DNA of 33,030 nucleotides from Gammaproteobacteria bacterium (GTDB taxonomy: Bacteria; Pseudomonadota; Gammaproteobacteria; Natronospirales; JAJUFS01): contig JAJUFS010000011.1 in assembly GCA_029263725.1 (NCBI GenBank), positions 1-33,030 of the forward strand. The letters run 5' to 3'. Below the pieces are notes generated by a model. That model ran no database searches. It worked only from the letters and a program-made list of their open reading frames with translations, and was not told where the DNA came from. Numbering within the stretch: the stretch's first letter is position 1; each line of letters starts with the position of its first letter. Positions 38 to 33,030 of the stretch are shown here, in pieces. Both the position numbers and the translations under genes were made by a program.

Positions 38-2104
38 ATGGACGCCAATCCGGTCTTCCGGGACGCCCTGCAGGGACCGCGCGCGTGGCTGGTCGCGGCC
101 ATCATACTGCTGTTCCCCGCCACCACCCTCGTGCTCGAGGGGGCGGCCTCCTTCCTGCTGCTGTTGCTGGCGCTGCTCGGCATCGTGTTCGCGCTGCGCG
201 AACGCGGCGAGCCCCTGTCGCGCGACGAGAAGCTGCTGGTGTTCAGCGTCGCCTTCTTCGTCGGCATCGCCGTGCTGTCCTACCTGCTCGGTGAACTCAA
301 CTATCTCGGCTTCAAGAAGCTCGGCCGCTACGCGCGCTTCCTGCTGCTGATCCCGATCTATCTCGTGGTGCGGCGCATGCCGCACAGCGGCCGTTACTGG
401 TGGACGGGGCTGGCCATCGGCGGCATCGCGGTGGGCCTGTTCAGCCTGCTGCTGCTCATCGATGAAGGCCGCTGGATCGAGGGCAACGACCTCTTCAATC
501 TCACCACCGAGCCGCTGCTGTTCGCCTCGCTGTCGCTGGTGGTGGCCTTCATGAGCCTCGGCGGCGTGGAATATTTCCGCGGCCGCTCGGCCTGGCTGAT
601 GCTGCTGCCGGCGGCGGGCTTCGTGCTCGGCTGCACCGCCACGTTCCTCTCGGGCGTGCGCAGCTCCTGGGTGGCGGTGCCGGGACTGGCGCTGTTCCTG
701 TTCTGGTATTTCGCCACGCGGCGCGCGCCGGCCTGGCGATGGGGCGTACTCGGCGGCCTGCTGGCGATCGCGGTGCTGGTCTACCTCGTGCCGCAGACCG
801 GCGTGGCCGAACGAGTGCACATGCTGGTAGAGGACGTCGGACGCATTCTCGCCGGCGAAAAGGTCGAGGGCGTGATCGGCTACCGCGTGCCGATGGCGAA
901 GATCGCCTGGCATGCCTTCCTGCAGAATCCGCTGTTCGGCGCCGGCGTGGGCGGCTACGCGGTCTACCTGCGCGAGTTCGTAGAGGCCGGGCTGGCACCG
1001 GAGCAGCTGCTGCGCTTCGACCATCCGCACAGCGAATACCTCGCCGTGCTCGCCGGCCGCGGGCTGGCGGGGCTTCTGGCGCTGCTGCTGGTGTTCGGCA
1101 TCCCGCTCAGGCATTTCCTGTGGGGCATCCGCCACCCGGACCGCGACATCGCGGCGCTGTCGTATGCGGGCATCGCGCTGGTGGTCGGCTTCATGCAGTT
1201 CGCGCTCACCGAGGCGATCTTCGACCGCACGCTGCCGATCACCTTCTACGTGTTCTGCCTGGCGGTGATCTACGGCCTGGTGCGCGCCTGCGAGCGCGAG
1301 TACCTGTCACGCTCGACGCAGCGCGCGCAGAGCCTGAGCGTGATCATCATCGCCAAGAACGAGGCCGACCGCATCGGCCAGACGCTGGCGGCGATCCATG
1401 GCTGGGCGGACGAGATCATCGTGCTCGATTCCGGCAGCAGCGATGAAACCGTCGAGATTGCGCGGCGCTACGCCGACAAGGTGCAGGTCACCGACTGGCC
1501 GGGCTTCGGCCGGCAGAAGCAGCGCGCCCTGGATGCGGCGAGCTGCGACTGGGTGCTGGCGCTGGACGCGGACGAAGTGGTTACCCCGGCCCTGCGCAAC
1601 GAGATCGATCATGAATTGACGGCCACACCGCGCTTCCAGGGTTATCGCATTCCGCGGCCGCTGATCATCTTCGGCCAGCATGTGGATTACGGCGGCAGCT
1701 GGCAGGCGCCGCTGCGGCTGTTCCGCCGCACGCTTGCGCGTTACACCGATGTCCCCGTGCACGAGAAGGTGGTGCTGAGCGAAGGAAAGATCACGCTGAT
1801 GCGCAGCGGCCTGCACCACCCCACCTACCGCGACTACCAGCATGCGTTGCAGAAGTTCGTCGATTACGCCTGGCTGCAGGCCGGGGCGCGCTGGAACCGC
1901 GGCCGGCGCAGCAGCATGACCGGCGCGGCACTGCGCGCCGCCTACAACTTCATCTACAACTACTTCATCCGCTTCGGTTTCCTGGATGGCGCCCACGGCT
2001 TCGTGCTGGCTGCCCTGCACGCGCAGTACACCTTCAACAAGTACGCGGCGCTGTGGGCGATGGAACAGGAACCGCACACCGCGCCGCCGCCCGGCGGGGA
2101 ATGA
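38..2104 (+). CDS. O-antigen ligase/polymerase-like membrane protein fused to a WaaE/KdtX-like family 2 glycosyltransferase
   Basis: 688 aa ORF; N-terminal ~420 aa multi-TM with Wzy/WaaL-like 'NPLFGAGVGGYAVYLREF...HPHSEYLAVLAGRGLAGLL'; C-terminal 'SLSVIIIAKNEADRIGQTLAAIHGWADEIIVLDSGSSDETVEIARRYADKV...LALDADEVV' typical of GT2. Confidence 0.85.
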   Translation: MDANPVFRDALQGPRAWLVAAIILLFPATTLVLEGAASFLLLLLALLGIVFALRERGEPLSRDEKLLVFSVAFFVGIAVLSYLLGELNYLGFKKLGRYARFLLLIPIYLVVRRMPHSGRYWWTGLAIGGIAVGLFSLLLLIDEGRWIEGNDLFNLTTEPLLFASLSLVVAFMSLGGVEYFRGRSAWLMLLPAAGFVLGCTATFLSGVRSSWVAVPGLALFLFWYFATRRAPAWRWGVLGGLLAIAVLVYLVPQTGVAERVHMLVEDVGRILAGEKVEGVIGYRVPMAKIAWHAFLQNPLFGAGVGGYAVYLREFVEAGLAPEQLLRFDHPHSEYLAVLAGRGLAGLLALLLVFGIPLRHFLWGIRHPDRDIAALSYAGIALVVGFMQFALTEAIFDRTLPITFYVFCLAVIYGLVRACEREYLSRSTQRAQSLSVIIIAKNEADRIGQTLAAIHGWADEIIVLDSGSSDETVEIARRYADKVQVTDWPGFGRQKQRALDAASCDWVLALDADEVVTPALRNEIDHELTATPRFQGYRIPRPLIIFGQHVDYGGSWQAPLRLFRRTLARYTDVPVHEKVVLSEGKITLMRSGLHHPTYRDYQHALQKFVDYAWLQAGARWNRGRRSSMTGAALRAAYNFIYNYFIRFGFLDGAHGFVLAALHAQYTFNKYAALWAMEQEPHTAPPPGGE

Positions 2105-3166
2105 TCAGAAGGTTTCGAGCGCGTCGGCGATGCGCCGGCTGGCCTGGCCGTCGGTGGGACCGATGAGTTCGCGGGTGTAGCGGCAGCGAACTTCGCTGCG
2201 CTCGGCGGGGAAGGCCAGCGCCTGTTTCACCACCTCCACCAGCGCATTGGGCGTGGCGGCGTGCGAGGCGATGTCGGCGTACTGCTCGATGCTGCGATCC
2301 AGGCGCTTCTCCAGCCGCCATGCCAGCGGGCCGCGATGCGCCCAGCGGCGATGGAAGAAGTCGCACCACACCACCGGCCTGTCCAGTGCCGCGAACTCGA
2401 ACAGCGCCGACGAGGCTTCGCTGACCAGGATGTCGGCCGCGGCCATGAACGGCAGCAGCGAAACCTCACCCGGACCCGCAACGAAGGCGTTGTCGAAGCG
2501 CCGCCAGCTTTCCAGCCGCTTGCGCTGCGGGGCGTAGTAGGACTTGGTCCAGGAAAAGTGGTGCGGTTTCACCAGCAGGTTGCAGCCTTCGAAGCGCGCC
2601 GGCAGGTCGGCCGGCAGGCGCTCGATGGAGCTCGGGTAGTAGGTCGGCGCATACAGCACCGTCGGCAGCGACGGGTCGAGCCCCAGCGCGGCGAGATCGA
2701 GGCGGATGCCGGCGGGGTCGCGGAACAATGGATCCAGCTTGGCGAAGCCGACCGCGCGCAGCTTCGCTTCCGGGTAGCGGCGCTGCAGCTCGCGCTCGCG
2801 GTACTCGCCTTCGACGAAGCGCAGGGTCATGCGCATCAGGCCCGCGCCGTAATAGCAGCGCTTCACGCCGATGCCGTGGTAAAGCAGCGCGGTGCGCGTG
2901 CCGGCGGGCAGCTCGTCGAGGTGATCGTAGCCGTTGCCGAAGATCAGCCAGTCCGGCTGCTGCTTCAGGTACTCGCGGTGCGCGTCGCGCGCGCCCTTCA
3001 CGTGTACCTGTGGCAGCCCCTGGCTGACCACCGCCAGCGCCTCGGCGCACTCCAGTTCCTCGTGAAAGACGAACAGCGTTTCATGGCCGCGCGCCGCCAG
3101 CTCGCGCTGCACCGGCAGGAACTGCGGCAGGTAATAGAGGTGCTGGACGTCGAAGATGACCTTCAT
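2105..3166 (-). CDS. CDP-glycerol glycerophosphotransferase-like (Glyphos_transf) protein
   Basis: 353 aa ORF; 'PTVLYAPTYYPSS...LLVKPHHFSW...AADILVSEASSALFEFAALDRPVVWCDF' typical of the family. Confidence 0.75.
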   Translation of the reverse strand: MKVIFDVQHLYYLPQFLPVQRELAARGHETLFVFHEELECAEALAVVSQGLPQVHVKGARDAHREYLKQQPDWLIFGNGYDHLDELPAGTRTALLYHGIGVKRCYYGAGLMRMTLRFVEGEYRERELQRRYPEAKLRAVGFAKLDPLFRDPAGIRLDLAALGLDPSLPTVLYAPTYYPSSIERLPADLPARFEGCNLLVKPHHFSWTKSYYAPQRKRLESWRRFDNAFVAGPGEVSLLPFMAAADILVSEASSALFEFAALDRPVVWCDFFHRRWAHRGPLAWRLEKRLDRSIEQYADIASHAATPNALVEVVKQALAFPAERSEVRCRYTRELIGPTDGQASRRIADALETF

Positions 3167-4206
3167 TTGACAAGTCCCAGGCGGCGGTAGCGGCGGCGCA
3201 TCTTGAGGCGGCGGAAGAAGTTGCGCGGCTTGGGTTTCAGCGTCGCCATCCGGTTCTCGTTGATGAAGGTCGCAATGGCGTCCAGCACGCGTTCGCTGGA
3301 GCGCCCGTCGCGGCAGGGGTGCATGGCCTCGGCGAAGCGGCGCGCGGCGGCGAGGTCGCCGGGCTGGCGTTCCAGGGCGCGCTCTATGTGCGCCTCAAGC
3401 TCCGCCGCGCGGGTGAAGTTGATGAGGTGCGGCCCGGGACGGCTGTTGCGGAAGGTCACTGCCGGCTTGTCGAGCAGCAGGAATTCCGCGACCACCGACG
3501 AGGTGTCGCTCACCAGCACGTCGGCGGCGCGCAGCAGCGGATTGATGGCCGACGTGCCGGCCACCTGGAGCGTGGCGCCGGCCAGCGCCTGGAAGTGCGC
3601 GATCCACTTGCGATCCATCTTGGGATGGAACTTCACCAGCCAGTTCCAGCGACCGGCCTGCGCCAGCTGCGCGATTTCTCCCGCGAGCGCGGGCGCGCTG
3701 GTGAGCGAGGGCGAGAAGGTGGGCGCGTACAGGATGAGCGGCCGTGCAGGGTCGGCGAAGCCCGCGCGCCAGTCGGGATCGGGGCCTGCCGGCGCGAACA
3801 GCGCGTCGGTCTTGGGCCAGCCGGTTTCATGCACGGCGAAATGCCCGTGGCGCGCCGCCAGCGCCAGGAACGGTTGCGTGGTCAGCGGCCCGTGGGTGCA
3901 GTAGAGATCGAACCAGCCGCGGATGCGGAAGTGACCTTTCTTTTCTATGCCGAAGCCGTGGAAGACCTGCACCTTCACGCCCGGGAAGAACGGCGGCACC
4001 CAGTTGCCGGGCACCAGCACGGCGTCGGGCGCGAAGGCCTTGACCGCATCGAAATCCCGCAGGCGCAGTTCGTCCGTCTGCAGCTGGTCGTTCGCGGTCG
4101 GTTCCAGGAACCAGGCGACTTCATCGCCACGCTGCCGCGCCGCCGCCTGCACCGGGCGAAGGATCTCGTAGGCGTAATCGTGTGTGACGAACATGAGGTG
4201 CTTCAT
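3163..4206 (-). CDS. CDP-glycerol glycerophosphotransferase-like (Glyphos_transf) protein
   Basis: 347 aa ORF; 'LILYAPTFSPSLTS...WLVKFHPKMDRKW...AADVLVSDTSSVVAEFLLLDKPAVTFRN'; overlaps the following gene by 4 bp. Confidence 0.8.
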   Translation of the reverse strand: MKHLMFVTHDYAYEILRPVQAAARQRGDEVAWFLEPTANDQLQTDELRLRDFDAVKAFAPDAVLVPGNWVPPFFPGVKVQVFHGFGIEKKGHFRIRGWFDLYCTHGPLTTQPFLALAARHGHFAVHETGWPKTDALFAPAGPDPDWRAGFADPARPLILYAPTFSPSLTSAPALAGEIAQLAQAGRWNWLVKFHPKMDRKWIAHFQALAGATLQVAGTSAINPLLRAADVLVSDTSSVVAEFLLLDKPAVTFRNSRPGPHLINFTRAAELEAHIERALERQPGDLAAARRFAEAMHPCRDGRSSERVLDAIATFINENRMATLKPKPRNFFRRLKMRRRYRRLGLVK

Positions 4207-5249
4207 CAGGCCCTCGATTCCATCAGCGTGTCGAGCTTGCCAGTGACATCGTCGACGGTGATGAGGTCCATGGCATCCGGGGAGCGCACTCGCGCGCCCC
4301 AGCGGACCTCGTCGACGCTACGGTCGAGGAACTTTCGTAATGCATCCGGGTAGCGATTCACCACCCATTCGCGCCCGTAATACGGACCGGTACGGTCGGG
4401 ATTCGAGGTGGCGTAGAGCCCGATGACCGGTGTGCCCACGGCGTTGGCCATGTGCACGGGGCCGGAATCGGGGGAAACCAGCACGGCCGCGCCTTCCAGC
4501 AGGGCGAGCAGCTGCTTCAGCGAGGTCTGGCCGATCAGGTTCACGCAGGCGGGCAGCTCCCGCTGGATGGCCGCGCCATAGCCGCGCTCCAGCTCGGTGG
4601 GGCCGCCGGTGAGCAGCACGCGCATGCCGTGCTTCGTGATGGCATGCCGGGCCAGCGCGACATAGCGCTCCACCGGCCAGTTGCGGAAGTTGCGGCTGCG
4701 CTGGCTGGAGCAGGGGCTGATGACGAGCGTCGGCGCATCGAGATGTCTCGCCGCGAACTCGCGGGCGTCATCGGGGATCGGAATGTCCCAGCGCACCGCG
4801 CCGCGTGGCACGCCCAGCGCCTCGGCAAAGCCGAACAGGCCGTCCATGACGTGCTGCCGCGGGTGGGCTGGAATCTCGCGGTTGGTGAACAGCCACTGCC
4901 AGTCGCGGGCGCGGGCGCGGTCGAAGCCGAGGCGCAGCGGCGCCTTCACCGCCAGCGAGGCGATGCTCGCGCGCAGTGCGACCTGCATGTGCAGCAGCGC
5001 GTCGAAACGCCGGCCCTTCAGGCGGCGGGCGAGTTCCCGGTAGCCGGCGAGCCCCGCGCGCTTGTCGAAGACGATGAACTCGATCCCGGGAATGTCGCCG
5101 ACCAGCTGGTGCTCGAGCCGGCCGATGATCCAGGTGATGTGGGTGTCAGGCCACCGATCCTGTAGAGTGCGCACCACCGGCAAGGTGTGGCAGATGTCCC
5201 CGATCGCGGAGAGGCGCAACACGCATAGGTTGCCGGGTGAGTCGATCAA
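4206..5249 (-). CDS. Glycosyltransferase family 9 (heptosyltransferase)
   Basis: 'LCVLRLSAIGDICHTLPVVRTLQDRWPDTHITWIIGRLE' and 'LLEGAAVLVSPDSGPVHMANAVGTPVIGLYATSNPDRTGPY' are GT9 hallmarks. Confidence 0.9.
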   Translation of the reverse strand: MIDSPGNLCVLRLSAIGDICHTLPVVRTLQDRWPDTHITWIIGRLEHQLVGDIPGIEFIVFDKRAGLAGYRELARRLKGRRFDALLHMQVALRASIASLAVKAPLRLGFDRARARDWQWLFTNREIPAHPRQHVMDGLFGFAEALGVPRGAVRWDIPIPDDAREFAARHLDAPTLVISPCSSQRSRNFRNWPVERYVALARHAITKHGMRVLLTGGPTELERGYGAAIQRELPACVNLIGQTSLKQLLALLEGAAVLVSPDSGPVHMANAVGTPVIGLYATSNPDRTGPYYGREWVVNRYPDALRKFLDRSVDEVRWGARVRSPDAMDLITVDDVTGKLDTLMESRA

Positions 5250-5302
5250 GCGGGAGAGCTCCGGGAATGCAGGCGTCAGTGCGGGCCATCAAGGGCGGGC
5301 TA

Positions 5303-6010
5303 ATGCTATACGATGCCGCGGAGAGCGGCAAAATCCATGATCACGTTTTCGCGCCGGCCTACTGGCGCGCCCGCAATGCCCTCAGCGAGCCGCTTGGCGG
5401 GCGCGGCGCCGCCTGGCGCATCACTGCTGGCGACATCGACTGGGTGTTGCGCTTCTATCGCCGCGGCGGCCTGCCCGGCAAGGTGCTGCTCGACTGGTAC
5501 CTGTTTACCGGGATGGATCGTTCCCGGCCCTTCCTGGAATGGCATCTTCTCAAGGACATGCATGACGCGGGCTTGCCGGTGCCGCGGCCGGTGGCGGCGC
5601 GCGTCATCCGCTACGGTCTCGGCTATCGCGGCGCCATCATCACCGCTACGGTGCCGGGCGAATCCCTGGCGCGGCTGCTCATCGAGGAGCGGCTGACCGC
5701 CGCCGACTGGCAGGCGACGGGCTACTGGATCCGCAAGTTTCATGATTCCGGTGTATGGCACGCCGACCTGAATGCCCACAACGTGCTCATCCAGCAGGCG
5801 GAATTGTCATCAAAGGTTCACTTGATCGACTTCGATCGCGGCAGATTCCGCCCGCAGGATACGGGCTGGCGAGAGGGGAATTTGTCCCGTCTGCGCCGGT
5901 CGCTCGCCAAGGTCGCGCCTGACAGGGAGGCGCTGATCGAGGCGGGCTGGGCAGAACTGCGGAAGTCATACGACGAGCCATGGGAATACCAGCACCGGAA
6001 CACGAGCTGA
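5303..6010 (+). CDS. kdkA: 3-deoxy-D-manno-octulosonic acid (Kdo) kinase
   Basis: 'WRITAGDIDWVLRFYRRGGLPGKVLLDWYLFTGMDRSRPFLEWHLLKDMHDAGLPVPRPVAARV...FHDSGVWHADLNAHNVLI...LIDFDRGR' is KdkA-like with kinase catalytic motifs; ORF opens at 5237, start at 5303 chosen. Confidence 0.88.
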   Translation: MLYDAAESGKIHDHVFAPAYWRARNALSEPLGGRGAAWRITAGDIDWVLRFYRRGGLPGKVLLDWYLFTGMDRSRPFLEWHLLKDMHDAGLPVPRPVAARVIRYGLGYRGAIITATVPGESLARLLIEERLTAADWQATGYWIRKFHDSGVWHADLNAHNVLIQQAELSSKVHLIDFDRGRFRPQDTGWREGNLSRLRRSLAKVAPDREALIEAGWAELRKSYDEPWEYQHRNTS

Positions 6011-7254
6011 GACTGCTGTTTCTTTCCCGCCCGGGCATTCACGTCCGCTATTTCCGTGCACTTGCCGAAATCCTGCCGCGAAGCCGTGTCGAAGCGGTGA
6101 GAGCGGTGCGGCGCGCCGAGGGCAACGAGTTTCCCGCCGATGACATCCTGGAGCGCCTGCTCCGCGTCCACGTGGCGCGACGCTTCCAGCGCGCGCCGCG
6201 CGTCTTCCGCTACCGGCTGCTGCGGGCAATCTATCTTGCACACCTGCGCCGCGCGGCGCGCCGCCTGTACGCGCACTGGCTGGCGCGCCTTGGCCGCGAA
6301 CGCGGACAGTGGGATGCGGTTGCCGTGTGGAATGGGTTGCGCTACCCGGACGCCGTGCTGGTGGCGGCGGCACGCGAGGCCGGGCTGCCGGTGGTGCATT
6401 TCGAGCTTGGCGCGCTGCCCGAGTCGCTCAGCATCGACCTGCATGGCGTGAACTTCGACAACAGCGTGCCGCGTACCGCGTCCTTCTACCTGCGTCACTG
6501 CGAGCAGCTGCCGCCGGCCACGCCATTGCCGCTGCGCCCGCGCCGTCCGCGGCGCGGCAAGCGGCTCGAAGTCGCCGCGCTGCCGGAGCGCTTCCTGTTC
6601 GCGCCCTTCCAGGTCAACTACGACACGCAGATCGTCGCGCACTCGCCATGGATAGGAAACATGCATCACTGGTACGAGGTGCTCGCCGGCATGCAGCAGC
6701 GGCTAAGCGCGGAAGGCGATCCGCGCGTCATCGTGCTGCGCGAACACCCCAGCGACATGACGCATTACCCGGACCTGCATGAACGCGCGCAACGCGACGG
6801 CATGTTGTTCGCCAACGGCAACGACATGCGGGAGCTGCTCGACCGCATGGACGTGCTGCTCACCATCAACTCGTCCACCGGCATCGAGGCGCTGCTGCGG
6901 GGAAGGAAGGTGATCGTCTGCGGACAGGCGTTCTACGACATCGACGGGCTGGTGCTGCGCGCCCGCGACGGGGACTCATTGCTGGCCGCGATCCGCGAGG
7001 CGGACCACTGGAAACCGGATGGGCTGCTGCGCGAACGCTTCCTCGCCTGGCTGGAACACGAGTATTACGTGCCGCGCTTCCAGCCGAAGGGCCTTGCCAG
7101 TGATGATGCCGCCGAGCGCCGCGAGCACCAGCGCCGCCTCGAGCTTGCCATCAGGCGCATCCACGCGCTGCTGGCGCCGCCGGCAACCGAGACGCGGCCG
7201 CATTTCCATTCGCGACGTGAAATCACGGCGCAGGAGCAGCCGGCCCGCTGGTAG
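5980..7254 (+). CDS. Capsule polysaccharide synthesis (Capsule_synth / KpsS-KpsC-like) family protein
   Basis: 424 aa; 'VIVLREHPSD...ELLDRMDVLLTINSSTGIEALLRGRKVIVCGQAFYDIDGL' resembles the Capsule_synth C-terminal motif; 31-bp overlap with kdkA. Confidence 0.7.
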   Translation: MGIPAPEHELRLLFLSRPGIHVRYFRALAEILPRSRVEAVRAVRRAEGNEFPADDILERLLRVHVARRFQRAPRVFRYRLLRAIYLAHLRRAARRLYAHWLARLGRERGQWDAVAVWNGLRYPDAVLVAAAREAGLPVVHFELGALPESLSIDLHGVNFDNSVPRTASFYLRHCEQLPPATPLPLRPRRPRRGKRLEVAALPERFLFAPFQVNYDTQIVAHSPWIGNMHHWYEVLAGMQQRLSAEGDPRVIVLREHPSDMTHYPDLHERAQRDGMLFANGNDMRELLDRMDVLLTINSSTGIEALLRGRKVIVCGQAFYDIDGLVLRARDGDSLLAAIREADHWKPDGLLRERFLAWLEHEYYVPRFQPKGLASDDAAERREHQRRLELAIRRIHALLAPPATETRPHFHSRREITAQEQPARW

Positions 7255-7263
7255 GTCCTGCCG

Positions 7264-8184
7264 TCAGCGTTTCTCGCGATACGCCTTGGTCTTGAAGCGG
7301 TTGTGGCACCAGAGGTACTGCTCGGGGACGCGCCGCGCTTCCTCTTCGATGAGGGCGTTGACGCGGGCGCTGTCGGCCACCGGATCGGCGCTGGGAAAAT
7401 CCGCGAGCGGCGGATCGATGCGCAGGCGATAACCCTCGGCGCCGGGCAGGCGTTCGACCATGAAGGGCAGCACCGGGCTGCCGGCGCTGCGCGCGATCCG
7501 CGAGGTAGCGGTATTGGTGGGCGCGGGCACGCCGAAGAACGGCAGCATGGCGGAGTTCTTGCCGCGGTAGCCCTGGTCGGGTGCGTACCACACCGGATGG
7601 TTTTCCTTCAGCGAGCGGATCAGCGAGCGCACATCGTCGCGCGGGATGACCTTCTCGAAATGCCTGCGGCGGCTGTTGGAGATGATGATTTCCAGCAGCT
7701 CGGTGCGGTTCGGCCGGTACATCAGGTGGAAAGGATGGAACAGCGCCAGCAGCCGGCCGCCGATTTCCAGCGTGGTGAAGTGCGCCGACAGCAGCAGCGC
7801 GCCGTGCCCCTGGGCGAGCGCCGCCTCGAGATGCTCAAGGCCCTCGATGCGCACCAGCTTGCGCAGCTTGCGGTCCGACGCCCACCAGCAGTTGGCGATC
7901 TCGAACACCGCGATGCCCAGCGCCTTGAAATGCTCGTGCGCGAGCGCGCGGCGCTCGGCTTCGGAAAGCTCCGGGAAGCACAGGTCCACGTTGAGATGCG
8001 TGATGCGCCGGCGGCGTCCCGCGGTGGCGTAGATCAGCCAGCCGATGCCGCGGCCGAGGAACAGCTGCACGCGGTAGGGCAGGTAGACGCTCAGGCGCAT
8101 GAAGCCGATCACCAGCCACAGCGGCCAGTAGAGCGGGTTGAGCACGTGCCTGGGCTGGACCCTGTCGGGATATTTCACTGTAGC
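7264..8184 (-). CDS. lpxL: Lipid A biosynthesis acyltransferase, LpxL/HtrB family
   Basis: 'YWPLWLVIGFMRLSVYLPYRVQLFLGRGIGWL', 'GALLLSAHFTTLEIGGRLL', 'VWYAPDQGYRGKNSAMLPFFGVPAPTNTATSRIARSAGSPVLPFM' typical of LpxL; start MATVKYP at 8184. Confidence 0.9.
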   Translation of the reverse strand, partial: ATVKYPDRVQPRHVLNPLYWPLWLVIGFMRLSVYLPYRVQLFLGRGIGWLIYATAGRRRRITHLNVDLCFPELSEAERRALAHEHFKALGIAVFEIANCWWASDRKLRKLVRIEGLEHLEAALAQGHGALLLSAHFTTLEIGGRLLALFHPFHLMYRPNRTELLEIIISNSRRRHFEKVIPRDDVRSLIRSLKENHPVWYAPDQGYRGKNSAMLPFFGVPAPTNTATSRIARSAGSPVLPFMVERLPGAEGYRLRIDPPLADFPSADPVADSARVNALIEEEARRVPEQYLWCHNRFKTKAYREKR

Positions 8185-8324
8185 CATCCGGGAAAAGCGA
8201 AAGCGGATTCTAGCCCTCCGCTCGATGCGGGTGAACCGCCGCGCGTTAGGGCCTTTCACGGGTCGGGGGTTTTTGATGCTGTGCTACCATGCGCGGCACC
8301 GCCTTCGCAGCCCGATCACGACGC

Positions 8325-9746
8325 ATGAACATCCGCATTCCCGACTTTTCCCAGGTCCGCGTGCTGGTCGCGGGCGACGTCATGTTCGACCGCTACTGGT
8401 ATGGCGCGACCGGAAGAATTTCTCCCGAGGCGCCGGTGCCGGTGGTGAAGGTGGAGCAGGAGGAAGGCCGTCCGGGCGGCGCGGGCAACGTCGCCGCCAA
8501 CATCGTCAGCCTCGGCGGGCGGGCCACCGTGGTCGGTGCCGTCGGCCGCGATGAGGCCGCCGCGCGGCTGCGCAAGGCGCTGGGCGAGCGCGGCGTGGAT
8601 TGCGATTTCGTCGAGCTCGACGGCATCGAGACCACCACCAAGCTGCGCGTCATCAGCCGTCACCAGCAGCTCATCCGCCTGGATTTCGAAAGCACCGACC
8701 GCGACATCGACGCCGCGCTGTTCAACGCGCGCGCCGCGAGCGCGCTGCCCGGCCACCAGGTGCTGATTCTTTCCGACTACGCCAAGGGCACGCTGGGCGA
8801 TCCGCAGGCGCTGATCCGTGCGGCGCGCGAGGCCGGCGTGCCGGTGCTGGTCGATCCCAAGGGCCGCGACTTCCAGCGTTACCGCGGCGCCACCCTGCTG
8901 ACGCCCAATCTTTCCGAGTTCGAGGCCATCGTCGGGCCCTGCCGCGACGAGGACACGCTGGTGGAGAAGGCGCGCCGGCTGCGCGAGGAACTCGAGCTCG
9001 AGGCCCTGCTGGTCACTCGCAGCGAGCACGGCATGACGCTGGTCGCCAACGACGGCGTGCATCACCTGCCGGCGCAGGCGCTGGAAGTCTTTGACGTCAC
9101 CGGCGCCGGCGACACTGCCATCGCCGTGCTGGCGGCGGGGCTGGCCGCGGGCCTGCCGCTGCCCGATGCCGCCGCGCTCGGCAATTTCGCCGCCGGCCTC
9201 GTGGTCGCGCGGCTGGGCGCGGCGAGCGTCACGCCCACCGAGCTCAAGCTCGCCGTCAAGCATCGCACCGGGGGCGCCACCGGCATCCTCGAGGAAGACG
9301 AGCTGGTCGAGGCGGTGCGCGACGCGCGCCAGCGCGGCGAGCGCGTGGTGATGACCAATGGCTGCTTCGACATCCTGCATGCCGGCCACGTCGCCTACCT
9401 GCAGGAAGCGCGCGCGCTGGGGGACCGCCTGGTCGTCGCGGTCAACACCGATGAATCCGTGCGCCGTCTCAAGGGCCCCGAGCGGCCGATCGTGCCGCTC
9501 GCGCAGCGCATGGCGGTGCTCGAGGCACTGGACGCGGTGGACTGGGTGGTGCCGTTCGGCACCGACACGCCGCGCGAGCTCATCGCCAGGGTGAAGCCCG
9601 ACATTCTCGTGAAGGGCGGCGATTACCGGCCCGAGGAAATCGCCGGCTATGAAGAAGTGATCCAGGCGGGCGGCGAGGTTCGCGTGCTGCACTTCGAGGA
9701 AGGCATCTCGACCACCGGGATCATCAGCCGCATACGAAGTCTCTGA
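8325..9746 (+). CDS. hldE: Bifunctional D-glycero-beta-D-manno-heptose-7-phosphate kinase / heptose-1-phosphate adenylyltransferase
   Basis: N-terminal PfkB-type kinase ('[10 protein letters not shown]', '[14 protein letters not shown]') plus C-terminal nucleotidyltransferase ('[34 protein letters not shown]'). Confidence 0.95.
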
Positions 9747-9747
9747 C

Positions 9748-11013
9748 ATGCGCAGCCTGTACAACCTGCTGCTGATCCTGCTGCTGCCGCTGTTCCTGGT
9801 GATCGCCGCGGTGCGCGCCAAGCGGCAGACCGGCAGCTGGGGCCCGGTGCGCGGCCGGCTCGGCCTGGTGAGCGTCCAGTCCGGCGACAACGTCTTCTGG
9901 GTGCATGCCTCTTCCGTCGGCGAGATGCAGGCGGCCGTGCCGCTGGTCAAGGCGCTGGCCGCAGGGTATCCCGAGGCGCGTCTCATCGTCACCAGCTTCA
10001 CCGCGAGCGGCATGCAGCGTGCCCGCGCCGCCTTCGGCGAGACCGTCGAGATCGCGCCGCTGCCCTACGACCTGCCGCTGTTCAACCGCCTGTTCCTGGA
10101 GCGTGTTCGGCCGCGCGTGCTGATCGTCATGGAAACCGAGGTCTGGCCGAACCTGTTCCGCCAGGCCGCGGCCCGCGACATCCCGGTGCTGCTGGTGTCC
10201 GCGCGCATGACCGAGAAGAGCGCAAGGCGCTACGCGCGCATCAGCCGCCTGGTGCGCGATGCGCTCGCCGCGGTGCGCTACGTCGGCGCGCAGAGCGCCC
10301 GCGACGGCGAGCGCTTCCGTAGCCTGGGCGTGCCGCGCGAGCGCGTCACCGTGAGCGGCAACCTCAAGTTCGACATTCCCGAATCCGCCGAGACCCGCGA
10401 GCAGGGCCAGGCGCTGCGCGGCCTGCTGTTCGCCGGCGCCCAGGTGCTGGTCGCCGCCAGCACCCGCGTGGGCGAGGACGAGATCGTGCTGGACGCCTTC
10501 CGGCAGGTGCGACGGCGGCATCCGGATGCGCGGCTGGTCATCGTGCCGCGGCATCCCGAGCGCGGCGCGGCCATCGTGGCCCTGGCGCGCGAGGCGGGCT
10601 TCAGCGTTGCGCAGCGCTCGGTTGACGAGCCCGCCGCGCTCGCCGACGTGCATGTCATCGACACCATCGGCGAACTGAACGCCTTCTATGCCGCGGCGGA
10701 CGCCTGCTTCGTCGGCGGCAGCCTGGTGCCGGTCGGCGGCCACAACCTGCTGGAACCGGCCTCGCTTGGCATTCCCATCGTCACCGGCACGCATCACTTC
10801 GCCACCCCGGACATCTTCCGGGAGATGCGCGAGGCCGAGGCGATCATGGTGGCACGCGACGCGGCTTCGCTGGCGCATGCCTGGAACGAGCTGCTCGATG
10901 ATCCGGTGCTGCGTGACGAGCTCGGCCAGACGGCGCGCGCCATCGTCGAGCGCAACCGCGGCGCGCTCGCCGCGGTGATGCGCGACCTGCAGCCCTTCCT
11001 TCCCGCGGCCTGA
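9748..11013 (+). CDS. waaA: 3-deoxy-D-manno-octulosonic acid transferase
   Basis: 'FWVHASSVGEMQAAVPLVKAL', 'LPYDLPLFNRLFLERVRPRVLIVMETEVWPNLF', 'DACFVGGSLVPVGGHNLLEPASLGIPIVTGTHHFATPDIF' are WaaA/KdtA signatures. Confidence 0.95.
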   Translation: MRSLYNLLLILLLPLFLVIAAVRAKRQTGSWGPVRGRLGLVSVQSGDNVFWVHASSVGEMQAAVPLVKALAAGYPEARLIVTSFTASGMQRARAAFGETVEIAPLPYDLPLFNRLFLERVRPRVLIVMETEVWPNLFRQAAARDIPVLLVSARMTEKSARRYARISRLVRDALAAVRYVGAQSARDGERFRSLGVPRERVTVSGNLKFDIPESAETREQGQALRGLLFAGAQVLVAASTRVGEDEIVLDAFRQVRRRHPDARLVIVPRHPERGAAIVALAREAGFSVAQRSVDEPAALADVHVIDTIGELNAFYAAADACFVGGSLVPVGGHNLLEPASLGIPIVTGTHHFATPDIFREMREAEAIMVARDAASLAHAWNELLDDPVLRDELGQTARAIVERNRGALAAVMRDLQPFLPAA

Positions 11014-25076: not shown

Positions 25077-27074
<1,998 letters not shown>

Positions 27075-27549: not shown

Positions 27550-28152
27550 ATGAGAATTGTCGACGTCACCAGCGAGAACTTCGAAGAGGCGGCGGCCGTG
27601 CTGGGCGCCGCGTTCAGCGACTACGCCGTTTTCACTTTCGTGCTGCCGCCGGAAACCGCGGACCGGGAGCGCAAGCTGCTGGCGCTGATGCGCTATTACG
27701 CCTGGCGGCGCTTCGTGAGGAGCTGGCCGCTGCTGGCGGTGGAAGAGGATGGGCGCTTGCTCGCCGTGATTGCCGCCAATCCTCCCCATGACGGCACGCC
27801 GCCGCCCGGTGAGGCGGAGGCCGAGCGCGAGCTGGTCGCCGTCATCGGCGAGGAGGCGGAACAGCGCCGCCGCGCCTACGAATCCGCGAGCGGCGGCGGC
27901 TTTCCCGAGGTGCCGAAATTCTTCGTGGGCATGATCGGGGTGCGTCCCGAGGCTCGGGGCCGGGGGCTGGGCAAGGCGCTGATGACGGAAATCCTGCACC
28001 GTTCGCGCGCTCATCCCGAATCGCGCGGCATTGCGCTGTGCACCGAAAGCCGCGACAACCTGCCGTTCTACCGGGCGCTCGGCTTTGATGTCGTCGATCA
28101 TGCCGATGGGCAGATCGAAAGCTGGTCGCTGTGGCGCTACAACGACGGCTGA
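27550..28152 (+). CDS. GNAT family N-acetyltransferase
   Basis: 'FFVGMIGVRPEARGRGLGKALMTEILHRSRAHPESRGIALCTESRDNLPFYRALGFDVVDH'. Confidence 0.9.
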   Translation: MRIVDVTSENFEEAAAVLGAAFSDYAVFTFVLPPETADRERKLLALMRYYAWRRFVRSWPLLAVEEDGRLLAVIAANPPHDGTPPPGEAEAERELVAVIGEEAEQRRRAYESASGGGFPEVPKFFVGMIGVRPEARGRGLGKALMTEILHRSRAHPESRGIALCTESRDNLPFYRALGFDVVDHADGQIESWSLWRYNDG

Positions 28153-28156
28153 CCTT

Positions 28157-28198
28157 GCGGCCGCCGCGCTCGCCGCAGGGCGAGCACGGGGCGGCCGC
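28157..28198. repeat. Nested inverted repeat between the GNAT gene and the small membrane protein gene
   Basis: Outer arms GCGGCCGC (28157-28164 and 28191-28198); inner gctcgcc-gcag-ggcgagc (28168-28185). Confidence 0.6.
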
Positions 28199-28234
28199 GC
28201 TACAATCCGCGTTCCTTCCCCCGCGGAGCGTTCC

Positions 28235-28435
28235 ATGAAGGTTCTTCTCGTGCTTCTGCTGTGGGCGCTGCTGCTGGCGCTGTGCTGGCCGCTCGCGCTG
28301 CTGGTGCTCGTGCTCTGGCCGGTCCTGTGGCTGCTGTCCATTCCCTTCCGCATCATCGGCGTGCTGATGGAAGCCCTGCTCGCGTTCGCGCGCGCGCTGT
28401 TGATGCTGCCGGCGCGGCTCCTGGGAGAGCGATGA
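28235..28435 (+). CDS. Small hydrophobic protein (66 aa)
   Basis: MKVLLVLLLWALLLALCWPLALLVLVLWPVLWLLSIPFRIIGVLMEALLAFARALLMLPARLLGER; stop overlaps the next start (ATGA). Confidence 0.65.
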   Translation: MKVLLVLLLWALLLALCWPLALLVLVLWPVLWLLSIPFRIIGVLMEALLAFARALLMLPARLLGER

Positions 28436-29670
28436 GCCCACCCCTGGACGCGGCGGTGATCGGCGGCGGCCCCGCCGGACTGATGGCCGCGGAGCGCCTT
28501 GCCGCCGGCGGACTGCAGGTGGAGGTCTTCGATGCCATGCCTTCGGTGGGGCGCAAGTTCCTGCTCGCCGGCATCGGCGGCATGAACATCACCCACTCCG
28601 AACCCTTCGATGATTTCGTTCCGCGTTACCGCGAGCGCGCCGCGGAGTTGCGGCCGCTGCTCGAAGCCTTCGGGCCGGCGGCGCTGCGCGACTGGATCCA
28701 CGGCATTGGCATCGAGACCTTCGTCGGCACGTCGGGGCGCGTGTTCCCGCGCGAGATGAAGGCCGCGCCGCTGTTGCGTGCCTGGCTGGCGCGCCTGCGC
28801 ACGGCCGGCGTGCGCTTTCATCCGCGGCATCGCTGGCTGGGATGGAACGCCGATGGCGGCCTGCGCTTCCTCACGCCCGGCGGCGAACATTCGGTGAACG
28901 CAGGAACGACCGTGCTTGCCCTGGGCGGCGCCAGCTGGCCGCGGCTCGGTTCGGATGCCGCCTGGGTTCCGTTATTGCAGGAAAAAGGCGTGGAGATCGC
29001 GCCCCTGCGGGCCGCGAACTGCGGCTTCGAGATCGCCTGGAGCGAGTTCTTCCGCGCGCGCTTCGCCGGCGTGCCGGTGAAGCCGGTGACGCTGTCATTC
29101 CGCGATGTGAACGGCGAGCATTGCGTCCGTCACGGCGAGTTCGTGGTCACCGCGCACGGCATCGAGGGCTCCCTGGTCTACGCCGTCTCGGCGCCGCTGC
29201 GTGATGCATTGGAGCGCGACGGACAGGTGCGCATTACGCTGGACCTTGCGCCGGGACGCAGCGAGACGGCGCTGCGCAACGCATTGGCAGCACCGCGCAA
29301 GGGCCGTTCGCTGTCGGAACACCTGCGGCGGCGCGCGGGCATCCATGGCGTGAAGGCGGCGCTGCTGCGTGAGGCGCAACCAGAGCTGCCAGCCGATGCC
29401 GGCGAGCTTGCTCAGCTCATCAAGTCATTGCCGCTGCTCATCACCGCGGCCCGGCCCGTCAAGGAAGCGATCAGCACCGCGGGCGGCATTTCCTTCACGG
29501 CGATCGACGGGAACATGATGCTCAAGGACTTGCCGGGCGTGTTCGTTGCCGGCGAGATGCTCGACTGGGAAGCGCCGACCGGCGGCTACCTGCTGACGGC
29601 GTGTTTCGCGACGGGCTACGCGGCCGGCGAGGGCGCGTTGCGCTGGAGACGGATGACGCCGGAAGCCTGA
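28432..29670 (+). CDS. NAD(P)/FAD-dependent flavoprotein, HI0933/BaiN-YhiN family
   Basis: 'AAVIGGGPAGLMAAERLAAGGLQVEVFDAMPSVGRKFLLAGIGGMNITHSEP', 'ALGGASWPRLGSDAAWVPLL', 'KEAISTAGGISFTAIDGNMMLKDLPGVFVAGEMLDWEAPTGGYLLTACFATGYAAG'. Confidence 0.92.
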   Translation: MSPPLDAAVIGGGPAGLMAAERLAAGGLQVEVFDAMPSVGRKFLLAGIGGMNITHSEPFDDFVPRYRERAAELRPLLEAFGPAALRDWIHGIGIETFVGTSGRVFPREMKAAPLLRAWLARLRTAGVRFHPRHRWLGWNADGGLRFLTPGGEHSVNAGTTVLALGGASWPRLGSDAAWVPLLQEKGVEIAPLRAANCGFEIAWSEFFRARFAGVPVKPVTLSFRDVNGEHCVRHGEFVVTAHGIEGSLVYAVSAPLRDALERDGQVRITLDLAPGRSETALRNALAAPRKGRSLSEHLRRRAGIHGVKAALLREAQPELPADAGELAQLIKSLPLLITAARPVKEAISTAGGISFTAIDGNMMLKDLPGVFVAGEMLDWEAPTGGYLLTACFATGYAAGEGALRWRRMTPEA

Positions 29671-29680
29671 GCTTCCGGCG
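29657..29680. repeat. Perfect inverted repeat at a convergent gene junction, stop codon in loop
   Basis: cgccggaagc-ctga-gcttccggcg; the TGA stop of the flavoprotein (29668-29670) is in the loop. Confidence 0.7.
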
Positions 29681-29686
29681 CGTACA

Positions 29687-29956
29687 TCAGTTCAGCCGGT
29701 CGCGCCCGGGAAGGTCGCTGTCGGAGAAGCGCGTGTCCTGCTCCCAGCGGGAAAGTTCCTCCTCGGCCTCCTTGCGCGACTTGCCATAGGTTTCCTGGAT
29801 GGCGCCGAGCAGCTTGTCGCGGTTGCCCTCGATGCGGTCCAGGTTGTCGTCGGTGAGATCGCCCCAGCGCTCCTTGATCCTGCCCTTGAACTGTTTCCAG
29901 TTGCCCTTGGCGATGTCCCAGTTGGCGCTGCGGGACTGATTGGATTGCTCTCGCAT
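29687..29956 (-). CDS. CsbD family (UPF0337-like) protein, copy A
   Basis: 'NWDIAKGNWKQFKGRIKERWGDLTDDNLDRIEGNRDKLLGAIQETYGKSRKEAEEELSRWE'. Confidence 0.9.
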   Translation of the reverse strand: MREQSNQSRSANWDIAKGNWKQFKGRIKERWGDLTDDNLDRIEGNRDKLLGAIQETYGKSRKEAEEELSRWEQDTRFSDSDLPGRDRLN

Positions 29957-30211
29957 GTGGTTCTCCGCGGTGTGAGTTCCTGTTCATGGAACCCTTGTTC
30001 GGGCAGTCCGCGCAAATCATGAAACTGCTGAAGGCAAGGTGCTCAACGGCAAAGCGCGCCAGGGCGATTTGTGTCGGCCTGTGGCGACAGCGATGAGCGT
30101 GTAGCCCCCTCGATTGCACAAAATAATCAGAATTAGCACCGATGAAATATATACGCTGAAACGCTCAAGCTTTGTCTCCGGCGGCGGTTGCGTTTCTGTC
30201 ATCACACCTCG

Positions 30212-30231
30212 CGCAAGGTCGTGTCCTTGCG
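30212..30231. promoter_or_regulatory. Candidate dyad operator upstream of the Crp/Fnr gene
   Basis: CGCAAGG-tcgtgt-CCTTGCG, 7-bp perfect arms with N6 spacer, 26 bp before the ATG. Confidence 0.4.
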
Positions 30232-30257
30232 TGGAACCGGAAAAGGTGGAGGCTTCA

Positions 30258-31076
30258 ATGCTTCGCAGAAACCTTCTGCAGGAGAACGCCGTGCTCGCGG
30301 CCATGAGCGCCAGGGACAGCGAACTGATACGAGCCATGCTCGAACCCGTGACGTTGCATGCCGGCGACACGCTCTATGAACCGCGCCGGCCGCTGCGCGA
30401 CATTTACTTCCCCGTCAGCGCGTCCATTGCGCTGCTTCTTGCCGCCGAGGAGGACTCGGCGGGCATTGCCATGGTCGGCAACGACGGCATGCTCGGCACC
30501 GGCCTGATGCTGGGCGTGGAGATCGCCGCCAGCCGTGCCGTGGTGGTCAGCGCCGGCGATGCCTATCGCATTGCGGGCAACCGCCTCAAGGCGGTCGCGG
30601 AAGAATCCCCGGAGCTGCGCATGCTGTTCCTGCGCTGCGCGCACCTGCTCACCCTGCAGGCAGCGCTCACCGCGGTATGCAACCGGCGGCACCTGGTGAA
30701 ACAGCAGCTGTGCCGCTGGCTGTCATGGATGATCGATCACACCCCTTCCTGGGATCTTTACGTCACCCACAGCGCGATTGCGGTCAGTCTCGGCGTGCGT
30801 CGCGAGGCGATCACGGAAGCGCTCGGGAAACTGCAGGACGCAGGCGCGGTCGCCTGTTCACGCGGGCGCATCTCGGTGCTCGAGCCGCGGCTGCTGCACC
30901 AGGGCGCGTGCAGCTGCTATTCGCTGCTCAAGGCCGAGCATGGACGCCTGCTGGGGATGGATGCCGGCGAGGATCAGTGCGAGCCGCCGGAATCGCGGCC
31001 GCGCTCCAGCGTCTCCAGGTTGGCCTTGACGAACGCGTCGACCTCGGCTTCGGCCTGGGCGCGATCCAGCCCGTAA
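30258..31076 (+). CDS. Crp/Fnr family transcriptional regulator
   Basis: 'LEPVTLHAGDTLYEPRRPLRDIYFPVSASIALLLA...AMVGNDGMLGTGLMLG' cNMP-binding fold; 'DLYVTHSAIAVSLGVRREAITEALGKLQDAGAVACSRGRISVLE' HTH_Crp. Confidence 0.9.
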   Translation: MLRRNLLQENAVLAAMSARDSELIRAMLEPVTLHAGDTLYEPRRPLRDIYFPVSASIALLLAAEEDSAGIAMVGNDGMLGTGLMLGVEIAASRAVVVSAGDAYRIAGNRLKAVAEESPELRMLFLRCAHLLTLQAALTAVCNRRHLVKQQLCRWLSWMIDHTPSWDLYVTHSAIAVSLGVRREAITEALGKLQDAGAVACSRGRISVLEPRLLHQGACSCYSLLKAEHGRLLGMDAGEDQCEPPESRPRSSVSRLALTNASTSASAWARSSP

Positions 31077-31243
31077 ACCTTCTGCAGCTTGCCGGCCAGC
31101 TTCTCGTGGCGGCCGGCGATTTCCTCGATCTCGTCGCGCGTCAGCCGGCCCCAGCGCTGGCGCGCGGCGCCTTTCAGGATGGTCCAGTTGCCGGCAAGGC
31201 GAGACCGCAGCCCGACATGTGGTGGTGGTTCGCGCATCGTCAT
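30974..31243 (-). CDS. CsbD-like protein, copy C
   Basis: 'LAGNWTILKGAARQRWGRLTRDEIEEIAGRHEKLAGKLQKVYGLDRAQAEAEVDAFVK' aligns with copies A and B; start MTMREPPP. Confidence 0.8.
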   Translation of the reverse strand: MTMREPPPHVGLRSRLAGNWTILKGAARQRWGRLTRDEIEEIAGRHEKLAGKLQKVYGLDRAQAEAEVDAFVKANLETLERGRDSGGSH

Positions 31244-31244
31244 G

Positions 31245-31577
31245 TCAATGCCGGGTGGGATGATCGCCGGTTTCGTTGCCGCTGCCGTACTCGCGCATGC
31301 GCTCGGTGGGTCCGCGGCCGCTGGCGCCGGCCACGCTCCTGCCGCCTTCCTCGAACTCGCGGACCTGCGCTTCGGCGGCTTCGGCATCAAGGCCGTACAT
31401 GCGCTGCAATTCTTCCAGCAGCTTTTCGCGCCGGCCGGCGATGCCTTGCACCTGCTCGTCGCTCAGCTGGTTCCAGCGCGCCTGTATCTTGCCCTTGAAG
31501 GTCTCCCAGTTGTTGCCGGCCTCGTCCCAGTTCATGTTCTGGCGGCGCTGCTCGTTGGAATCGATGCGGTTCTTCAT
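31245..31577 (-). CDS. CsbD-like protein, copy B
   Basis: 'NWDEAGNNWETFKGKIQARWNQLSDEQVQGIAGRREKLLEELQRMYGLDAEAAEAQVREFEE'; stop lies next to the start of copy C. Confidence 0.85.
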   Translation of the reverse strand: MKNRIDSNEQRRQNMNWDEAGNNWETFKGKIQARWNQLSDEQVQGIAGRREKLLEELQRMYGLDAEAAEAQVREFEEGGRSVAGASGRGPTERMREYGSGNETGDHPTRH

Positions 31578-31668
31578 GTGCCGATTGCTCCGATCACCTT
31601 AGTCATCCGCAATCTAGCCGCCGCCCCGTATTCGACCCATTCCGAATTGCCATTAGGGGAAAGACCAT

Positions 31669-32331
31669 TCACTCACGCAGAAGGTAACGGCCGGTGAAGC
31701 TCACGTTCCTGCCGCCGCAGCGTCCGCTGTCCTTCACATCCAGCGCCGCGCCGGCAAGCCGCATCTCGATGCGGCAGGCAGGATCGTTGCTGTCGTCCCC
31801 GAGCGCCTTCGCGTCGTAGAGCAGCATTCCCTCGCGTGGCGAAAGCACGGCCTCGAACTCGCCGAAGTTCATCGCGAGCTCGCTCACCTGGTAGCTTGCC
31901 TCGCCGCGCACCCGGTAGCCGTTTTCCGTTGCGATGATCACGATGCCCGCCTCGCGCGCGCCGCCATCCCGCAGGACCCAGTGGCCGGCCCAGGCGGCGA
32001 CAGGCCGTAGCGTCAGCGTGAGGCCGTCGGCGGGAAAGCGCGAGGCTTGATCGCAATCGAAGAGCTCGAGCCACGCCGCCTCGTATTCCAGTGCGACCGC
32101 CACGGTGACGCCGCAGCGCTCGAAGCGGCCGTGATGCAGCCGAGCGGGCAGGGCGAGATCATCGAGATCGCGCACCTCGATGTCCTCGCTCGCGGCAAGG
32201 TCAGCGGTGTGGCTGCCATGACTCACGCGGACGCGGTCAGCCGCCGCCTTGATGCGCCAGTCGACGCCGGCGTGCTGCAGCTCGAACTGGTGGGTATCGG
32301 CAAGGAACAGGAAAATAAGCGCCGTGATCAT
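31669..32331 (-). CDS. Hypothetical protein, possibly secreted
   Basis: 220 aa ORF with short hydrophobic N-terminus MITALIFLFLADTHQ; no recognised family. Confidence 0.6.
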   Translation of the reverse strand: MITALIFLFLADTHQFELQHAGVDWRIKAAADRVRVSHGSHTADLAASEDIEVRDLDDLALPARLHHGRFERCGVTVAVALEYEAAWLELFDCDQASRFPADGLTLTLRPVAAWAGHWVLRDGGAREAGIVIIATENGYRVRGEASYQVSELAMNFGEFEAVLSPREGMLLYDAKALGDDSNDPACRIEMRLAGAALDVKDSGRCGGRNVSFTGRYLLRE

Positions 32332-32453
32332 CGCCAGGCTCCTCGAATGAACAGGCGGCGCAGGCTAGCAGGCGGCGAGCCCCGGGAAAGTCAGGGGCTG
32401 CCGGAATCGGCGTTGCCTCGGTACCATCTGGCAAAAAAAGGAGGAAGGCCGCC

Positions 32454-32855
32454 GTGCATGAAGTTCGTCATCTTTCCGTCAGCATTGCCTGCCCGCCGCA
32501 GCGGGTCTACGAGTACGCCGCCGATCCCGCCAATCTCGCGCACTGGGCGAGCGGCGTGGGCGCGAGCATCCACCAGGAGGACGGTCGCTGGCTGGTGGAC
32601 GTGCCGGACGGCACCCAGGCGGAAATCCGCTTCACCCCGCGCAACAGCCACGGCATTCTCGATCACGAAGTGATACTCGCGGATGGCAGCGTGGTGCCCG
32701 TGCCGATGCGGGTCGTCGCCAACGGCAAGGGCGCGGAAATCATCTTCACGCTGTTCCGCCTGCCCGGCATGAGCGAGGCGGAGGTGGAGCGTGATCTCGC
32801 GACGATACGAGAGGATCTCGGCAGGCTGAAGCGGATACTGGAGGAAGGCCGGTAA
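32454..32855 (+). CDS. SRPBCC (START/polyketide cyclase-like) family protein
   Basis: 'VRHLSVSIACPPQRVYEYAADPANLAHWASGVGASIHQEDGRWLVDVPDG...VILADGSVVPVPMRVVANGKGAEIIFTLFRLPGMSEAEVERDLATIREDLGRLKRILE'. Confidence 0.8.
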   Translation: MHEVRHLSVSIACPPQRVYEYAADPANLAHWASGVGASIHQEDGRWLVDVPDGTQAEIRFTPRNSHGILDHEVILADGSVVPVPMRVVANGKGAEIIFTLFRLPGMSEAEVERDLATIREDLGRLKRILEEGR

Positions 32856-32900
32856 AAAAAAGGTTCTTCACGGATTAGCGGGGCCCGTGAGATATAGAAA

Positions 32901-32966
32901 GCGGCGCTCCTTCGGATAGATTTGGAAGGGACACGACTCCAATCCACTTCTGCGAAGGACCGCCGC
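32901..32966 (+). promoter_or_regulatory. Long imperfect inverted repeat in the 5' UTR of the last gene, covering its Shine-Dalgarno
   Basis: gcggcgctccttcg (32901-32914) pairs with cgaaggaccgccgc (32953-32966), 13/14 positions; nested TTGGA/TCCAA stem inside. Confidence 0.65.
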
Positions 32967-32967
32967 C

Positions 32968-33030
32968 ATGGCAGAGCCTAAAGTGCTTTCCCTGTTCTGG
33001 GAAGGCTTCGAACTTCACGATGTCCATGAA
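32968..33030 (+). CDS. 5' end of a CDS truncated by the window end (MAEPKVLSLFWEGFELHDVHE...)
   Basis: ATG preceded by cgaaggaccgccgcc (SD-like gaagga); frame open to the window end. Confidence 0.55.
   Translation, partial: MAEPKVLSLFWEGFELHDVHE

Follow-up and report, generated by a model that had tools for sequence, protein, structure and literature searches.

Gene organisation of the csbD locus

The window, that is, the whole stretch of 33,030 nucleotides that was analysed, contains three csbD genes bracketing the gene of a Crp/Fnr-type transcription regulator. The csbD-A gene (29687–29956, minus strand), encoding an ordinary YjbJ-type CsbD protein of 89 amino acids, is divergent from the regulator gene (30258–31076, plus strand; 272 amino acids), with an intergenic gap at 29957–30257 and a start-to-start distance of 301 bp. 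The csbD-B gene (31245–31577; 110 amino acids) and the csbD-C gene (30974–31243; 89 amino acids) are arranged in tandem on the minus strand and converge on the regulator. Their junction reads TGA-C-ATG, the csbD-C start lying one base past the csbD-B stop, and the two are probably co-translated. All four open reading frames were present in the arrangement described in the original prediction. The regulator stop at 31076 falls within csbD-C, which is encoded by the opposite strand, and by the ORF coordinates the two genes overlap tail to tail at their 3' ends (30974–31076). This antisense overlap of 103 bp involves an unusual C-terminal extension of the regulator and the 3' end of csbD-C.

An Rfam search of positions 28000–33030 gave no match, sigma-70 promoters and terminators at the locus did not score above shuffled sequences, and no sigma-70-like match was identified in the gap between csbD-A and the regulator. 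The remaining contig includes LPS/capsule genes (window positions 38–11010; O-antigen ligase, PfkB plus cytidylyltransferase, Kdo transferase) and a gene encoding a membrane H+-pyrophosphatase (25077–27071).

The three CsbD proteins

To our knowledge, no function has been assigned to the CsbD proteins, a widespread group of stress proteins. Searches with the Pfam CsbD family (PF05532; cut-off 40 bits) resulted in scores above the cut-off for csbD-A (66.9 bits) and csbD-C (45.1 bits), and in a score below it for csbD-B (18.2 bits, E = 0.0024). Against the NCBIfam model PRK10428 (YjbJ), A, B and C scored 86, 53.7 and 54.3 bits, respectively (E = 1.6e-14 for B and 1e-14 for C), and none of them reached the equivalog cut-off of 113 bits; judged by these profiles, the three belong to the YjbJ family, yet are not YjbJ equivalogs. 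A phmmer comparison of csbD-A with YjbJ (1RYK) gave an E value of 2.5e-19. The predicted model of csbD-B, which is of moderate confidence (mean pLDDT 69), had its best matches in the PDB, and the sole convincing ones, with 1RYK (TMt 0.73, E = 3e-3) and 1YWW (PA4738; TMt 0.76). Membership of csbD-B in the CsbD family is therefore based on the PRK10428 match, the alignment and the fold match rather than on its Pfam score. The claim of three CsbD-family genes was thus borne out by Pfam for A and C, with B being placed by PRK10428 and fold, and the family assignments at the locus are far from chance.

The sequence core NW..(F/L)KG....RW..L...(D/E)....I.G...KL....Q..YG is common to the CsbD/YjbJ family and to A, B and C, as is the predicted helical fold. 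The residues of this shared motif had been read correctly in the original prediction, but the spacing is KG-x4-RW and not x3. The window differs from the family at large in having three diverged copies in one place, one of them (B) under the Pfam cut-off and none an equivalog. Pairwise identities among A, B and C were 40–47%, in agreement with their earlier description as diversified paralogues. In a tree of 41 CsbD proteins, B and C were sisters (support 96/94), and csbD-A grouped, though weakly supported, with an ordinary YjbJ-type protein of relatives. From this placement, csbD-B and csbD-C look like products of a tandem duplication and csbD-A like a separate, conventional copy.

A Crp/Fnr-type regulator

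The longest open reading frame of the regulator starts with TTG at 30114 and would encode 320 amino acids. This start was rejected on homology, the similarity to relatives beginning near the ATG at 30258; the latter is favoured because of this homology and a preceding GGTGGAGG ribosome site. The encoded protein has in common with the Crp/Fnr superfamily (CRP, FNR, NtcA, GlxR) the overall fold, its predicted model being CRP-like (TMt about 0.75), and an HTH_Crp_2 domain (40.3 bits, above the cut-off of 27). It differs from the superfamily in its ligand domain, the cNMP_binding score of 16.6 bits being below the Pfam cut-off of 27.5, and from FNR proper in the N-terminal Fe-S cysteine cluster, as no cysteine is present in its N-terminal 100 residues. 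Its relatives are further set apart from the superfamily by a distinct palindrome of their own, TGTRCG-N4-CGYACA.

The identity of the window regulator to the relatives found did not exceed 48%, and the genomes searched yielded no close orthologue. Its recognition helix reads GVRREAITEA compared with GVRREGVTEA in relatives, a similarity that would predict the canonical palindrome as its site. The last about 40 amino acids are absent from relatives, which end soon after a CxCY..VK motif. This tail was modelled with pLDDT below 50 and its last 27 residues as disordered; given this disorder and the earlier termination of the relatives, the tail is probably a read-through extension.

Recurrence of csbD and the regulator in gammaproteobacterial islands

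The neighbourhood was surveyed in 370 gammaproteobacterial genomes, in which regulators of the subgroup were called at an E value of at most 1e-15. Besides the genome of the window, CsbD was found in 75 genomes, the regulator subgroup in 47 and both in 31. Over these 369 genomes, the two co-occurred with an odds ratio of 12 (p = 1.5e-13, uncorrected for relatedness). The nearest csbD-regulator pair lay within 5 kb in 15 of the 31 genomes with both, compared with 0.35 expected from random placement. The original prediction had made its case depend on recurrence of the association in other genomes, and the pairing does recur. Both families are widespread, and the two genes of the window might be chance neighbours drawn from them; for the family, chance proximity is rejected by these pair counts and contradicted by the operator statistics given below, and we regard it as highly unlikely even for this one genome, where it could still hold.

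The islands around such pairs have in common genes for BON, DUF3185, PRC-barrel, DUF883, OmpA-like, PAS-kinase and GGDEF proteins, and both gene orders of the window occur among them, with csbD divergent from the regulator (L062) or convergent with it (L064). A csbD gene was located within about 8 kb in only 19 of the 80 nearest regulator loci, and csbD therefore appears as one of several partners of the regulator. As in the window, the regulator subgroup adjoins csbD in the gammaproteobacterial CsbD/BON/PRC/GGDEF islands (L050–L066, L078–L157). The window differs from these islands in having three csbD genes that bracket the regulator, in the absence of the canonical operator and in the absence of other recognised island genes; none were recognised elsewhere on the contig among the ORFs scanned. 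The description of the locus as a 'self-contained' module did not hold up, since in relatives the corresponding unit is embedded in larger islands and further genes are also preceded by the operator.

Two regulators were often adjacent within an island (L050, L054, L057, L058, L059, L061 and L066), the neighbours representing different sub-branches (GVRREGVTEAA as opposed to GVRRxxVTxAA).

A palindrome upstream of csbD and regulator genes in relatives

Inspection of csbD promoters in relatives gave the pattern TGTNCG-N4-CGNACA. A 24-bp position weight matrix (PWM) was built from 17 island loci (consensus GGTCTGTRCGNTANCGYACAGACC) and applied to a test set of 80 named, non-overlapping loci that had no near-identical sequence in common with the training set. 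The palindrome TNTGTRCG-N4-CGYACANA was found at 257 PWM sites compared with 5.2 in shuffled sequences, and 67 of the 80 test loci were positive. In 47 of the 80 loci, the regulator start was preceded by a site at a distance of at most 400 bp (median 100 bp). Of 19 nearby csbD genes, 13 had a site within 500 bp upstream. Among 131 predicted ORFs beside sampled sites, many of them possibly spurious, were those of 15 Crp-type regulators, 7 BON, 5 GGDEF, 3 OmpA, 3 CsbD and 3 PRC proteins.

The association extended to csbD genes that were not adjacent to a regulator: a site was present at 10 of 20 such genes from genomes with the regulator and at 2 of 40 from genomes lacking it (p = 1e-4). Of the ten positives, L175 is situated 4 kb from a regulator and overlaps with a training locus, and for a few more a regulator is located within 10–30 kb. 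In one genome (G091), 11 of 16 exact palindrome matches fell inside 90 kb around its five regulators. Its location and co-occurrence suggest that the palindrome serves as the operator for a Crp/Fnr subgroup of wide distribution.

The palindrome was absent altogether from twelve Pseudomonas loci (L083, L085, L093, L094, L096, L100, L101, L103, L109, L110, L131 and L140), which may use a different operator. Two genomes, G314 (L185) and G194 (L209), had a strong operator upstream of csbD and no regulator at E 1e-15; they may carry a more diverged one.

Promoter regions in the window

The canonical operator was absent from both csbD promoter regions of the window, as judged by pattern and PWM searches. 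The best PWM score in the gap between csbD-A and the regulator was -0.1 bits (stretch at 30146; p = 0.29 against shuffles), and that upstream of csbD-B was -13.8 bits. Elsewhere in the same genome, on another contig, a site of 26.9 bits (C80:17459–17476) precedes a paralogous regulator (C80:17622); a second site, of 15.3 bits (C80:43018), lies near another paralogous regulator. The original prediction had the Crp/Fnr protein controlling the csbD genes. The palindrome links its subgroup to csbD promoters in relatives and supports this regulatory idea for them, but with the operator missing from the window the idea is unproven at this locus, where control of the three csbD genes by the local regulator can only be inferred.

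Two other dyads were noted, both of them weak leads. The dyad TGTCGGCCTGTGGCGACA (TGTCG-N8-CGACA; 30072–30089), the only exact match in the window, is a weak candidate for an alternative site, and the dyad ATTCGACCCATTCCGAAT (ATTCG-N8-CGAAT; 31630–31647) lies upstream of csbD-B. They have the same spacing and TCG core and occur one per csbD promoter region (p about 0.015, post hoc). Relatives showed no enrichment of TGTCG-N8-CGACA (5 in 1.16 Mb), and it was rejected as an alternative operator conserved among them.

Interpretation of the locus

Taken as a whole, the locus is probably a reduced and rearranged member of a family of stress islands, with loss of the operator at its csbD promoters. 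The family spans the Gammaproteobacteria, the former Betaproteobacteria included. Its regulator, with a CRP/FNR fold and a degenerate ligand domain, would bind TNTGTRCG-N4-CGYACANA as a dimer, control its own gene and switch on or off csbD, whose products are predicted to be small helical stress proteins, together with envelope-stress genes (BON, PRC-barrel, OmpA, glycine-zipper) and signalling genes; the direction of control, the signal and the rewiring are parts that we infer. In the genome of the window, the csbD set appears to have been duplicated and the usual operator lost or changed at the csbD promoters while being kept at a paralogous regulator elsewhere. If so, the local regulator would have lost these targets or would read a changed site, and the csbD genes of the window would be under sigma-factor control or the control of a rewired site.

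The second of these outcomes in its simplest form, in which csbD-A and csbD-B/C are at present direct targets of the local regulator via a diverged site such as TGTCG-N8-CGACA or ATTCG-N8-CGAAT, is possible but doubtful. It is consistent with the gene arrangement, with the RRE..TE residues of the relatives being retained in the helix GVRREAITEA and with the equally spaced TCG-core dyads in both csbD promoter regions (p about 0.015). However, these dyads were chosen post hoc and have an outer spacing of 18 bp instead of 16 bp, the TGTCG form is not enriched in relatives, and a conserved helix predicts the canonical site that is absent here. A broader version, with a Crp/Fnr stress regulon acting through TNTGTRCG-N4-CGYACANA on csbD, BON, PRC-barrel, OmpA and diguanylate-cyclase genes and a window regulator rewired to a TCG-N8-CGA-type operator for an expanded csbD set, we consider unlikely. 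Only tentatively can it be proposed that sigma factors of the general stress response (RpoS- or AlgU-like) alone control the csbD genes of the window, with the regulator a leftover neighbour acting elsewhere. The missing operator and the sigma-factor control of CsbD/YjbJ genes in studied bacteria argue for this, but the pairing is maintained, as the recurrent linkage and the operators found in relatives show. Finally, the three paralogues might hetero-oligomerise, as suggested in the original prediction, and might differ in their roles. The presence of three diverged copies in one place, two of them (B and C) likely on one transcript, would favour this, whereas the solved structures of relatives, 1RYK and 1YWW, each consist of a single small domain; we consider this reading quite unlikely.

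In published work, CsbD genes are reported as targets of stress sigma factors, for example, RpoS and RpoT (PMC10294668, PMC5437024). In Salmonella, YjbJ depends on sigma-S (PMC5437024), and dependence on AlgU has been described for a CsbD-like protein of Azotobacter (PMC10651043). In the open-access literature, we found no paper tying CsbD to a Crp/Fnr regulator and no description of TNTGTRCG-N4-CGYACANA as the operator of a subgroup. Control of CsbD is thus tied to stress sigma factors in the papers cited, and the relatives point to a second layer, namely a Crp/Fnr subgroup of wide distribution that has a precise palindrome in front of csbD and of genes for envelope stress. This palindrome and the regulon predicted from it in relatives go beyond the original observation and are the more interesting result, and the window, as a case in which the genes were kept together and the operator appears to have been lost, would be useful for the study of regulon rewiring.
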